Assembly (NCBI RefSeq): GCF_000153765.1
Contig: NZ_DS022294.1
Location: 1,023,456-1,075,362, forward strand
Length of the DNA: 51,907 nt
Reading direction: 5' to 3'
DNA from: Mariprofundus ferrooxydans PV-1
Lineage (GTDB): Bacteria; Pseudomonadota; Zetaproteobacteria; Mariprofundales; Mariprofundaceae
The position numbers and the translations under genes were made by a program. Below are positions 45,964 through 51,907 of the stretch, piece by piece. The notes beneath the pieces were generated by a model. That model had not been told where the DNA came from. It saw only the letters and a program-made list of their open reading frames with translations, and ran no database searches. Within the stretch, counting starts at the first letter, position 1. Each line of letters opens with the position of its first letter.

Positions 45964-47940
45964 ATGAACAGTTTATGGGATGAAAAGGACGCGCAGCCTC
46001 TGGCAGACGACCCGCTGGCACTGCGCGTTTACAGCTCGCGCCTGCTGGGACAGGAGCCGTCGCTGGTGCTGCACGGGGGCGGCAACACATCGGTGAAGGC
46101 CGATGCGGTCAACCTGTTCGGAGAAACGGAGTCGCTGATCTATGTCAAGGGCAGCGGCTGGGATCTGGCGACCATTGAGAAGGCCGGTTTTGCGCCGGTG
46201 CGGTTGGATGTGCTGCTCAAAATGGCGCGACTGCCATCGCTTTCCGATACGGATATGGTCACGGCCCAGCGGGCTGCAATGCTTGATCCATATGCGCCGA
46301 ATCCGTCGGTGGAAGCGATTCTGCATGCGATTATTCCGTTTGCGTTTGTCGATCATACGCATGCCGATGCGGTGGTCACGATCAGTAATACGCCGGATGG
46401 CGAGGCACGGCTGCAGGAGATCTACGGCGAGCAGGTGCTGATTCTGCCCTATATCATGCCCGGCTTTGTGCTGGCCAAACAGGTGTTTGCCATGACCGCT
46501 TCGGTTAACTGGTCGCAGCTTCAGGGGATCGTATTGCTTGGCCACGGCATCTTCACCTTTGCCGATTCGGCGCGCGAGAGTTATGAGCGGATGATTAGCC
46601 TGGTATCGCAAGCTGAACGCTTTCTGGCCGAATATGCGAAGCCGCCTGTGGCTGACGCTGTCGCACAACCTGTGAATTCGCTGCAACTGGCAGCGGTGCG
46701 CGCGGCCGTATCGCAGGTGCGCGGGGTGCCGGTACTGGCGCAGATCGACAACAGCGCCATCGTCGCCGGCTTTGCCGGGCGCGATGATGTGGCCGAGGTT
46801 GCCACACGCGGACCATTGACGCCGGACCATGTCATTCGCACCAAGCGCACCCCGCTGCTGCTGGGTGACGACGATGAGCCGGCTGCGGTAGTTGCAGCCT
46901 ATGGCGAGGACTACCGGACCTATTTCGAGCGTCACTGCACGCCCGGCCTGAGATGTCTGGATCAGGCGCCGCGCTGGGGCTTGTGGGCGGATCGCGGCGC
47001 CATCGCGTTCGGCACGACGGTGAGTGAATGCACGATCATTGCCGATATCGGCCGTCATACCATGCAGGCGATTGCGCAGGCAGAGTCACTGGGTGGATGG
47101 CAGGCGCTGCCAGAGCAGGATATTTTCGAGCTTGAATACTGGGAGCTGGAGCAGGCCAAACTGAAAAAAGGCGGAAGTGCACCGGAATTTCGCGGTCGCA
47201 TTGCGCTGGTTACCGGTGCTGCCAGCGGCATCGGCGAGGCCTGTGTACACGCATTGCTGGCCCACGGTGCTGTTGTGGCGGCACTCGATATCAATCCGGC
47301 AGTAACCACGATGTTCGATAGTGTATCTGTGTTCGGAGTGGTTTGTGATATGACCGATGCCGGGTGCGTGCAGCAGGCGGTAGACGCATGCGTGCGTCAT
47401 TTTGGAGGCCTGGATATTGTCATCAGCAATGCCGGCTGTTTTCCGCTGAGTCATCATATTGAGCGGATGCCTGCGGATATCTGGCAGCAGAGTATGGAGC
47501 TGAACCTGACCTCGCATCAGCGACTGCTTCAGTATGCTACTCCATACCTCAAGCTGGGCATCGAGCCTGCGGTCGTGATTATGGCCTCGAAGAATGTACC
47601 GGCGCCGGGACCGGGAGCTGCCGCTTATTCGGTGGCCAAGGCCGGCCTGACGCAGCTGGCGCGGGTGGCGGCGCTGGAGCTGGGAGGTGACGGTATACGG
47701 GTGAATGTTCTGCATCCGAATGCCGTCTTTGATACCGCGATCTGGAGTGAGGAGGTACTGGTGAAACGGGCTGCCAGTTACGGCTTGAGTGTGGGAGCCT
47801 ACAAAAAGAACAATGTGCTGGGATGTGAAGTCACATCACGGCATGTGGCGGAGATGGCTTGCGCCATGGCCGGCCCGCTATTTGCGTGTACAACCGGAGC
47901 GCAACTGCCGCTGGATGGAGGAAATGACCGTGTTATCTGA
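45964..47940 (+). CDS. Bifunctional aldolase/short-chain dehydrogenase (RhaD-like)
   Basis: This 658-residue fusion has an N-terminal class II aldolase/adducin domain and a C-terminal short-chain dehydrogenase. The aldolase part shows LVLHGGGNTSVKA, KGSGWDLATIE, zinc histidines in FVDHTHADAVV and VLLGHGIFTFAD. The SDR part has the cofactor loop VTGAASGIGEA, ISNAG, and the catalytic Tyr/Lys in AAYSVAKAGLTQ, with the catalytic Ser position occupied by MASKN. Related fusions act on rhamnulose or other sugar phosphates/lactaldehyde. No other sugar genes are nearby, so the substrate is open. ATG 45964 follows AGGAAA. Confidence 0.9.
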   Translation: MNSLWDEKDAQPLADDPLALRVYSSRLLGQEPSLVLHGGGNTSVKADAVNLFGETESLIYVKGSGWDLATIEKAGFAPVRLDVLLKMARLPSLSDTDMVTAQRAAMLDPYAPNPSVEAILHAIIPFAFVDHTHADAVVTISNTPDGEARLQEIYGEQVLILPYIMPGFVLAKQVFAMTASVNWSQLQGIVLLGHGIFTFADSARESYERMISLVSQAERFLAEYAKPPVADAVAQPVNSLQLAAVRAAVSQVRGVPVLAQIDNSAIVAGFAGRDDVAEVATRGPLTPDHVIRTKRTPLLLGDDDEPAAVVAAYGEDYRTYFERHCTPGLRCLDQAPRWGLWADRGAIAFGTTVSECTIIADIGRHTMQAIAQAESLGGWQALPEQDIFELEYWELEQAKLKKGGSAPEFRGRIALVTGAASGIGEACVHALLAHGAVVAALDINPAVTTMFDSVSVFGVVCDMTDAGCVQQAVDACVRHFGGLDIVISNAGCFPLSHHIERMPADIWQQSMELNLTSHQRLLQYATPYLKLGIEPAVVIMASKNVPAPGPGAAAYSVAKAGLTQLARVAALELGGDGIRVNVLHPNAVFDTAIWSEEVLVKRAASYGLSVGAYKKNNVLGCEVTSRHVAEMACAMAGPLFACTTGAQLPLDGGNDRVI

Positions 47941-50362: not shown

Positions 50363-50395
50363 AAAAAAACAGGGCTACGTTTGACCGTAGCCCTG
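50363..50395 (-). terminator. Rho-independent terminator of the SQR-like unit
   Basis: A perfect 10-pair stem CAGGGCTACG/CGTAGCCCTG with loop TTTGAC is followed on the minus strand by seven U. It lies 27 bases after the stop of the 53-residue gene and ends the flavoprotein transcript. Confidence 0.92.
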
Positions 50396-50422: not shown

Positions 50423-50584
50423 TTAGTGCTGCGACTTCATCATCAGCTTGATCATCTTCACGTTGATGACGATGAAGCGGATGAACTGCCACGGTAGCGA
50501 ATTACGCATATAGCGGGTGAAGCCCGTCGGCGTGGGCGGGTAATAGGACTGCTGGTAGGGCTCACGGTTGGTGGCTTTTGGCAT
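50423..50584 (-). CDS. 53-residue protein cotranscribed with the SQR-like flavoprotein
   Basis: A short frame starts at ATG 50584 after an excellent AGGAGAG site and ends with TAA at 50423-50425. The N-terminal half is polar and rich in Tyr and Pro (REPYQQSYYPPTPTGFTRY). The C-terminal half is a basic amphipathic or membrane-surface helix (WQFIRFIVINVKMIKLMMKS). It begins 27 bases after the flavoprotein stop and is followed by a strong terminator, so the two form one transcript. It may help attach the enzyme to the membrane. I do not recognise a family. Confidence 0.75.
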   Translation of the reverse strand: MPKATNREPYQQSYYPPTPTGFTRYMRNSLPWQFIRFIVINVKMIKLMMKSQH

Positions 50585-50611
50585 TTCTCTCTCCTGGATT
50601 TGTATTCTGGG

Positions 50612-51907
50612 TTAGTCCGGCATATATGACCAGCCGGGTTTCATCTTCGACTGGTACATGAAGGTGTAGTGCAGCATGTACTTCATCCAGTGGCCGGCCA
50701 GGCCGACTTCGCCGGTGGTCAGGTTGAGGTCGCGGCCGTATGCCGGATACTTCACGTAGTCCGGTACAACCGGGTAGACAGCCATCGAGACGGCACTGCC
50801 GCGGATGAAATGCGAACCCGTGGAGGCTATACAGGCAGCTCCCATCTCAGCCATGGAGGCATGGTGGGTTGGCTTCTCGGCGCCATTGAGCATGTCGCGG
50901 ATGCTTTTGGCCACGTTGACGGCCATGGCGGCGGAAGGCATACCGGTGCGCGGGGGTGTGGGGCTGATCGGCGTGCCGTTGGTGCTCTTCATCGGCTTGC
51001 TGATCGGGTGCGGCGGGGCGAACGCGATGCCGATGGCAAACAGGTTCTTGTAGGTCGGGTTCTGATAGGTCTTCGGCCAGTCCTCGGCACTCCACTCCTC
51101 GTAGGGGCGCGGCGTGTAGTCGCCGTCCACCTTCAAAAAGCCGTTCGGGGCGAACAGGTTTCCGGTGATGTCCTCGCCCTTCTTATCGAAGGCCTGCAGA
51201 CCCACGCCGGCGAAGGGGGGAATGAGCATCGAGAAGTCGAACTCAAGTTCGCCCATGCTGCCGTCGAGCAGTTCATAATGAATCTTGCCCGGTTCGACCT
51301 TGTTGACATGGGCACGCGTGATCCACTCGATGTCGCGCTCCACCATCAGCGATTCGGAGAAGGTTTTGGCGTTGGTCACATAGCCGCCGCGCTTGATGTG
51401 CACGCCGCCCATGCCGAAATCGCCCAATTCGTACTCGTTGCTGATCCAGATAATGCGTGCCTTGTCGCGCACGCCGGCCTCGCGCAGCGTGTGATCCACG
51501 TTGTAGGTGTATTCGAAGGCCGCGCCCTGGCAGGTACACATGCCATGGCCTGTACCGATCACGAAGGTTCGCTGCTCGCCATTCTTCATGGCTTCGATCT
51601 GCTCATGCAGCTTCTCGTTAGCTTCCAGGGCGTGCTTGGCGGTACATACGGACACGGTGTAGCCATTATCCGGGCCGAGGCCCTCGGTGGCGTTGAAGTT
51701 CAGCTTGGGTCCGGTGGCATTGATCAGGTAGTCATAGGTAAGGGCTTCTTCCTGGCCCGCACGTGCCTCGTCGGTGAATTCGACGGTAACGAATGGGGAT
51801 TCGTTGTCCTTGCTTCCCTCCGGGTGGATGGAGATTGCCTTGGCCTGATGGAAGGTGATTCCAGCCTTGTCGTACACCTGCTTCAGGTCGAAGGTCACAT
51901 CCTCTCT
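50612..51907 (-). CDS. Sulfide:quinone oxidoreductase-like FAD flavoprotein (partial, N-terminus outside window)
   Basis: The frame is open through the right edge, so the first 50 or more residues, including the FAD GxGxxG, are missing; a GTG at 51898 is internal. The visible 431 residues resemble the SQR branch of the two-dinucleotide-binding flavoproteins: YDYLINATGPKLNF, VIGTGHGMCTCQGAAFEYTY, the NLFAIGIAFAPPHPISKP FAD motif, TPPRTGMPSAAMAVNVAKSI and a C-terminal MGAACIASTGS. Cysteines in VSVCTAKH, GMCTCQG and AACIAS are candidates for the redox-active set. SQR oxidises sulfide at the membrane and passes electrons to quinone. The match is by pattern; another quinone-linked flavoprotein is possible. 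Confidence 0.78.
   Translation of the reverse strand, partial: REDVTFDLKQVYDKAGITFHQAKAISIHPEGSKDNESPFVTVEFTDEARAGQEEALTYDYLINATGPKLNFNATEGLGPDNGYTVSVCTAKHALEANEKLHEQIEAMKNGEQRTFVIGTGHGMCTCQGAAFEYTYNVDHTLREAGVRDKARIIWISNEYELGDFGMGGVHIKRGGYVTNAKTFSESLMVERDIEWITRAHVNKVEPGKIHYELLDGSMGELEFDFSMLIPPFAGVGLQAFDKKGEDITGNLFAPNGFLKVDGDYTPRPYEEWSAEDWPKTYQNPTYKNLFAIGIAFAPPHPISKPMKSTNGTPISPTPPRTGMPSAAMAVNVAKSIRDMLNGAEKPTHHASMAEMGAACIASTGSHFIRGSAVSMAVYPVVPDYVKYPAYGRDLNLTTGEVGLAGHWMKYMLHYTFMYQSKMKPGWSYMPD

Follow-up and report, generated by a model that had tools for sequence, protein, structure and literature searches.

A conserved small protein encoded beside an SqrD-like sulfide:quinone oxidoreductase of Mariprofundus ferrooxydans PV-1 as a candidate second subunit

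Sulfide:quinone oxidoreductases (SQRs) are monotopic membrane enzymes and a principal route by which electrons from sulfide reach respiratory and photosynthetic chains. At one end of the window, by which we mean the whole stretch of 51,907 nucleotides of Mariprofundus ferrooxydans PV-1 that was analysed (contig NZ_DS022294.1, positions 1,023,456 to 1,075,362 of the forward strand), a gene for a flavoprotein of the SQR family is followed by an open reading frame of only 53 codons. This raised the question whether the small frame is a gene at all and, if so, what its product does for the flavoprotein.

The two genes and their products

The features of the locus, in window coordinates, are the following.

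50612..51907, reverse strand: SQR-family flavoprotein gene, C-terminal 431 of about 485 residues; the 5' end lies beyond the window
50648..50701, reverse strand: single C-terminal amphipathic helix of the flavoprotein, model residues 457-474 of 485 (AlphaFold2 model of the relative L015, mapped by sequence)
50585..50611, reverse strand: intergenic gap of 27 nt with the Shine-Dalgarno sequence AGGAG at 50591-50595, 6 nt before the ATG
50423..50584, reverse strand: gene of the 53-residue small partner protein, ATG start, conserved core PT-x6-R-x5-Q-x2-RF-x3-N-x-K-M
50501-50524, reverse strand: short preceding helix of the small protein, residues 21-28, predicted with AlphaFold2
50432..50497, reverse strand: basic amphipathic helix of the small protein, residues 30-51, predicted with AlphaFold2 (pLDDT about 93 in the helix)
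50370..50395, reverse strand: intrinsic terminator CAGGGCTACG-GTCAAA-CGTAGCCCTG followed by TTTTTTT, a 10-bp stem and T7 just behind the stop of the small gene

The initial annotation had described a real small gene with a strong ribosome-binding site, 27 bases after the flavoprotein and with a terminator behind it, and this description was borne out by the AGGAG motif, by the 10-bp stem with its seven T, by the dN/dS values and by the homologues. A frame of 53 codons that belongs to no database family might be a chance reading frame or a feature of the 3' untranslated region. We give this a negligible probability and rejected it, since the median dN/dS of the small gene was 0.05-0.11 within groups, the ATG and the Shine-Dalgarno sequence were conserved, and profile matches were found in distant phyla; in addition, three plasmid records annotate it as a protein gene. 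At the level of sequence the frame is thereby confirmed as a real gene. An operon of the flavoprotein gene and the small gene is the best explanation of the arrangement, and the terminator at 50395-50370 on the reverse strand closes this two-gene unit. The pairwise distances of the small proteins and of the flavoproteins were correlated (r=0.91 over 57 pairs), a figure to which shared ancestry contributes.

The flavoprotein frame (50612-51907, reverse strand) has 431 codons in the window and no start, as the window ends inside the gene. Judged from its relatives, whose proteins have 483-491 residues, about 54 N-terminal residues fall outside. The relative L015 is full-length and 94% identical. 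It matched Pyr_redox_2 with 49.9 bits (cut-off 26.1), and the FAD-binding Rossmann domain of the two-dinucleotide-binding-domain flavoproteins was present, with SQR structures as the best matches in the PDB. The best solved relatives were type I SQRs, namely those of A. aeolicus (3hyv, E=1.8e-38) and A. ferrooxidans, and a profile search reached E=1.7e-52. The AlphaFold2 model of L015 had a pLDDT of 89 and TM scores of 0.74/0.84 to the A. ferrooxidans SQR. Among 25 diverse family members C142, C180 and C413 were invariant; they align with the SQR cysteines (C128, C160 and C356 in A. ferrooxidans) and correspond to residues 88, 126 and 359 of the fragment in the window. The sequence thus shows the flavoprotein to be an SQR homologue that retains the three cysteines, and its model has the fold of an SQR; the enzyme would oxidise sulfide at its FAD and pass the electrons to membrane quinone. 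The model contains one amphipathic helix of the kind with which SQRs bind the membrane, and the chain stops after this helix. Typical complete members of the family scored 700-940 bits against the family profile, a green-sulfur subgroup about 490-570 and other SQRs at most about 190, which sets the family apart by sequence as a discrete group among SQRs.

The small protein has a conserved core that consists of the PT motif, R27, Q33, R36-F37, N41, K43-M44 and then a final His. The head upstream of the PT motif varies in length and sequence, and it is missing or nearly absent in the protein of about 38 residues found in green sulfur bacteria. The earlier description as a polar Tyr/Pro head with a basic amphipathic tail therefore fits the copy in the window, but the head is not the conserved part, which begins only with the PT motif. 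The net charge of the C-terminal half is +4 to +9. With several basic residues along the helix, it is unlikely to span the membrane. Conservation on the long helix lay on one face (permutation p=0.002), which lies about 100 degrees from the hydrophobic side, and the hydrophobic moment of the helix was not significant against permutation (p=0.13). Cysteine is absent from the protein in the window and from many homologues. The family had no match in Pfam, NCBIfam or the PDB, and its profile found nothing among PDB sequences even at E 10; membership of a known small-protein family was ruled out on these grounds. Neither DUF1641 nor DUF2892 was matched by any of the 26 members checked. A split-off piece of an SQR C terminus was ruled out as an origin by homology, as the small protein matched neither the PDB nor the flavoprotein profile.

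Elsewhere in the window (45964-47940, forward strand) a single frame of 658 residues was observed in which a class II aldolase domain is fused to a short-chain dehydrogenase.

Pairing of the genes across bacterial phyla

For the survey of other genomes, 84,980 genomes were scanned with flavoprotein peptides only as the query, so that the result carries no bias towards the small gene. The scan found 61 loci, from Zeta-, Beta- and Gammaproteobacteria, Campylobacterota, Planctomycetota, Actinomycetota and Bacteroidota. All 59 loci examined with downstream sequence had a small frame behind the flavoprotein. These frames encode 48-69 residues, start 2-92 nt behind the flavoprotein stop and nearly all have a Shine-Dalgarno sequence. 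The small gene was also present in each of 41 additional loci, of which one is from Actinomycetota and 40 are from Bacteroidota in the GTDB sense, in many cases green sulfur bacteria; some profile scores of the small gene were weak there (down to E=2e-5), with its position constant. Overall the small homologues have about 35-70 residues. The same treatment found no small gene beside SQRs of other types (0 of 15 loci).

Presence and absence of the two genes coincided. Twelve of 61 relatives had both genes, with the small homologue in the same position and frame, and 49 had neither; in Campylobacterota the corresponding figures were 41 and 159 of 200 genomes. In Actinomycetota strong matches to both genes fell in the same two of 246 genomes, and four further weak matches to the small protein (E 0.003-0.008) were at chance level. 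A search of 398 Pseudomonadota that started from the small protein gave 24 matches, all of which adjoin the flavoprotein gene, whose frame seems broken in one draft genome (L166). The pair was also found on plasmids of an Alphaproteobacterium, a Chromatiaceae member and Sulfurovum, and the small gene is annotated as 'hypothetical protein' in all three records. Altogether the pairing spans at least five bacterial phyla.

No other neighbour was found to be conserved across phyla, and the flavoprotein gene and the small gene therefore appear to travel as a unit. A larger operon was ruled out, a deformylase-like gene and others being linked solely within Campylobacterota. One clear orphan small gene was found, a second copy in Sulfuricurvum (L085:5117-5278, reverse strand; G065:C95) that has no flavoprotein gene. 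It stands directly before a frame resembling peptide deformylase, a gene that often follows the pair in Campylobacterota, and an intact pair is present elsewhere in the same genome; for both reasons the orphan is probably a relic. Within its own genus and family the pair is patchy (12 of 37 genomes, relatives G000-G036), which suggests that the two genes were repeatedly lost or transferred together.

The initial annotation had called the small protein a real and dedicated partner, and the co-occurrence and adjacency of both genes in at least five phyla, with no other conserved cross-phylum neighbour, strongly support this. Conservation of the frame beside SQR-like genes had been set beforehand as the test of the idea; the frame was conserved and the idea survived. 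The pair was widespread and not special to iron oxidisers; its distribution ruled out a feature specific to them. We conclude that the small protein is almost certainly a functional partner of the flavoprotein and probably a stable subunit.

The class of the flavoprotein and the role of its partner

Green sulfur bacteria carry the flavoprotein family, and the FMO protein was present in 18 of 24 genomes checked. In one FMO-type single-contig genome of 2,154,946 bp, which we take to be the Chlorobaculum tepidum TLS chromosome, the family gene lies at 112,431-113,885. If its fmoA is taken as CT1499, the position at 1,404,108 gives about 937 bases per locus number and places the family gene at about number 120; counting of open reading frames with a rough caller gave 103-109 genes before it. 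These estimates fit CT0117, and do not fit CT1025 or CT1087. The family gene in this presumed C. tepidum genome is therefore probably CT0117, the type IV SqrD, and the flavoprotein in the window is best explained as an SqrD-like (type IV) SQR. CT0117 is known as a type IV SqrD that gives most of the SQR activity in C. tepidum (PMC3368242, PMC4584964), and deletion of CT0117 together with CT1087 abolished SQR activity there (PMC4584964).

Green sulfur bacteria also have a second, shorter flavoprotein subfamily (about 500 bits and 477 residues), alone or beside the main one and with a partner of about 38 residues (loci L098, L100, L102, L104, L106-L108 and L133-L136). It is possibly the class that others call SqrX. 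On the photosynthesis plasmid pTs485 of Thiodictyon syntrophicum (L076, NZ_CP020372) a family member occurs with its small partner. This copy differs from the SqrD and SqrF listed in the genome paper (PMC5944118), and we take it to be an extra copy.

Most SQRs end in two amphipathic helices, with a C-terminal domain that binds membrane and quinone, and type VI SQRs have one such helix (PMC9666304). The flavoprotein has one C-terminal helix, against two in type I SQR; most simply, its partner would provide the second. The small protein, with its variable head, short helix and long basic amphipathic helix, would bind the shortened C-terminal membrane domain of the flavoprotein through a face made up of Q33, R36, F37, N41 and K43, and the hydrophobic face of its helix would sit in the lipid interface. 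The second amphipathic helix, part of the same chain in type I SQRs, would here come in trans from the small protein, which would thereby hold the enzyme on the cytoplasmic membrane and close the quinone channel. The absence of a profile match to the SQR C terminus means that the likeness to the second helix of type I is one of analogy only. A second helix is also not obligatory in SQRs: some type I-like SQRs among the 15 controls, which have no small partner, likewise seem to end after one helix, and type VI SQRs have one as well. SqrF (type VI) of T. roseopersicina that had lost its only C-terminal helix was still membrane-bound and active (PMC9666304). The second SQR of the M. ferrooxydans genome itself, which is type I-like (L083:1330-2703; G000:C3:556996-558096), carries both C-terminal helices in a single chain and lacks a small partner gene behind it; a frame close behind its stop looks OsmC-like.

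As a plain membrane tether, the small protein would have no part in quinone binding or catalysis. The basic amphipathic helix, the positively charged C-terminal half (+4 to +9), the monotopic nature of SQRs and the single C-terminal helix of the flavoprotein would all suit such a tether, but a plain lipid anchor would keep just its hydrophobic character, whereas conservation here is strongest at polar or aromatic residues of one face (Q33, R36, F37, N41, K43). Moreover, the flavoprotein retains a C-terminal membrane helix of its own. We regard the plain tether as unlikely. Somewhat less likely still is a transient role, in which the small protein would assist the assembly or stability of the flavoprotein, for example at FAD insertion, or would regulate it, and would not remain in the mature enzyme. 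Such a role would leave the same pattern of strict co-occurrence and adjacency, and the absence of a solved relative agrees with it; the tracking of distances and the single conserved helix face suit a lasting interface better, although both are compatible with a transient one. The dedicated partner of an enzyme from a sulfide-oxidising family might also handle the sulfur that is produced; it could, for instance, be a persulfide carrier and accept sulfane sulfur from the flavoprotein. The lack of a conserved cysteine excludes a persulfide carrier for the protein in the window and its cysteine-free homologues, and sulfur handling as such is very improbable.

The reading we prefer, and consider somewhat more probable than its alternatives together, is a flavoprotein with a dedicated small subunit that docks on the membrane/quinone face by its basic amphipathic helix and replaces in trans part of the type I C terminus. 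Genomics shows the partnership, and the docking we infer. For the specific trans-helix mechanism we see the balance as about even. The predicted helix is in keeping with the earlier suggestion that the small protein may be a membrane tether or a small subunit. A wider generalisation would be that SqrD-type SQRs, among them the enzyme responsible for the bulk of sulfide oxidation in green sulfur bacteria, necessarily consist of two subunits, with an overlooked protein of 35-70 residues completing the membrane/quinone domain in trans. This generalisation is more tentative and in our judgement falls a little short of even. Should a second subunit be constant in one of the six SQR classes, the way in which this class binds the membrane, its quinone site and its heterologous production would need rethinking, work on the flavoprotein alone would be the study of an incomplete enzyme, and surveys of 'sqrD' would gain a reliable marker. 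The locus is also a case of a tiny protein that is tied to one enzyme class in five or more phyla, yet its annotation is still 'hypothetical'.

Comparison with known systems

Type I SQR (SqrA; A. ferrooxidans 3t31/3kpk, A. aeolicus 3hyv) shares with the flavoprotein the fold, the FAD Rossmann domain and three catalytic cysteines in the same places. In comparison, the flavoprotein is 26-27% identical, about 50 residues longer and has one C-terminal helix instead of two, and it has a separate small gene, which was lacking at the type I genes inspected. With type IV SqrD (C. tepidum CT0117, A. vinosum Alvin_2145) the link is the family gene at the expected position of CT0117 in the genome taken as C. 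tepidum. The open-access papers searched make no mention of a partner protein. This agrees with the statement of the initial annotation that it knew of no described SQR subunit of this type, as do the family libraries and the PDB.

Small membrane proteins of the DUF2892 family are likewise encoded beside SQR-like genes on three plasmids. They differ in that they belong to another family, stand before or after the gene and accompany other SQR classes; the small partner has no Pfam DUF2892 match. The plasmids are from Shinella, Methylocella and Azospirillum (L079, L080, L082), and an ArsR-type regulator was seen in two of the three.

Closest in function is ForE (DUF1641) of the Bacillus ForCE complex, a small protein in an operon with the catalytic subunit, which is essential for the use of menaquinone by a formate dehydrogenase without transmembrane helices (PMC8808070). 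ForE works in a similar way to that proposed here, but it has no sequence relation to the small partner, which does not match DUF1641, and with 17-21 kDa it is larger than a protein of about 35-70 residues. A flavoprotein with the same fold as that in the window, YjlD, is paired with another protein, YjlC, in the YjlC-YjlD structure (PDB 9a63).
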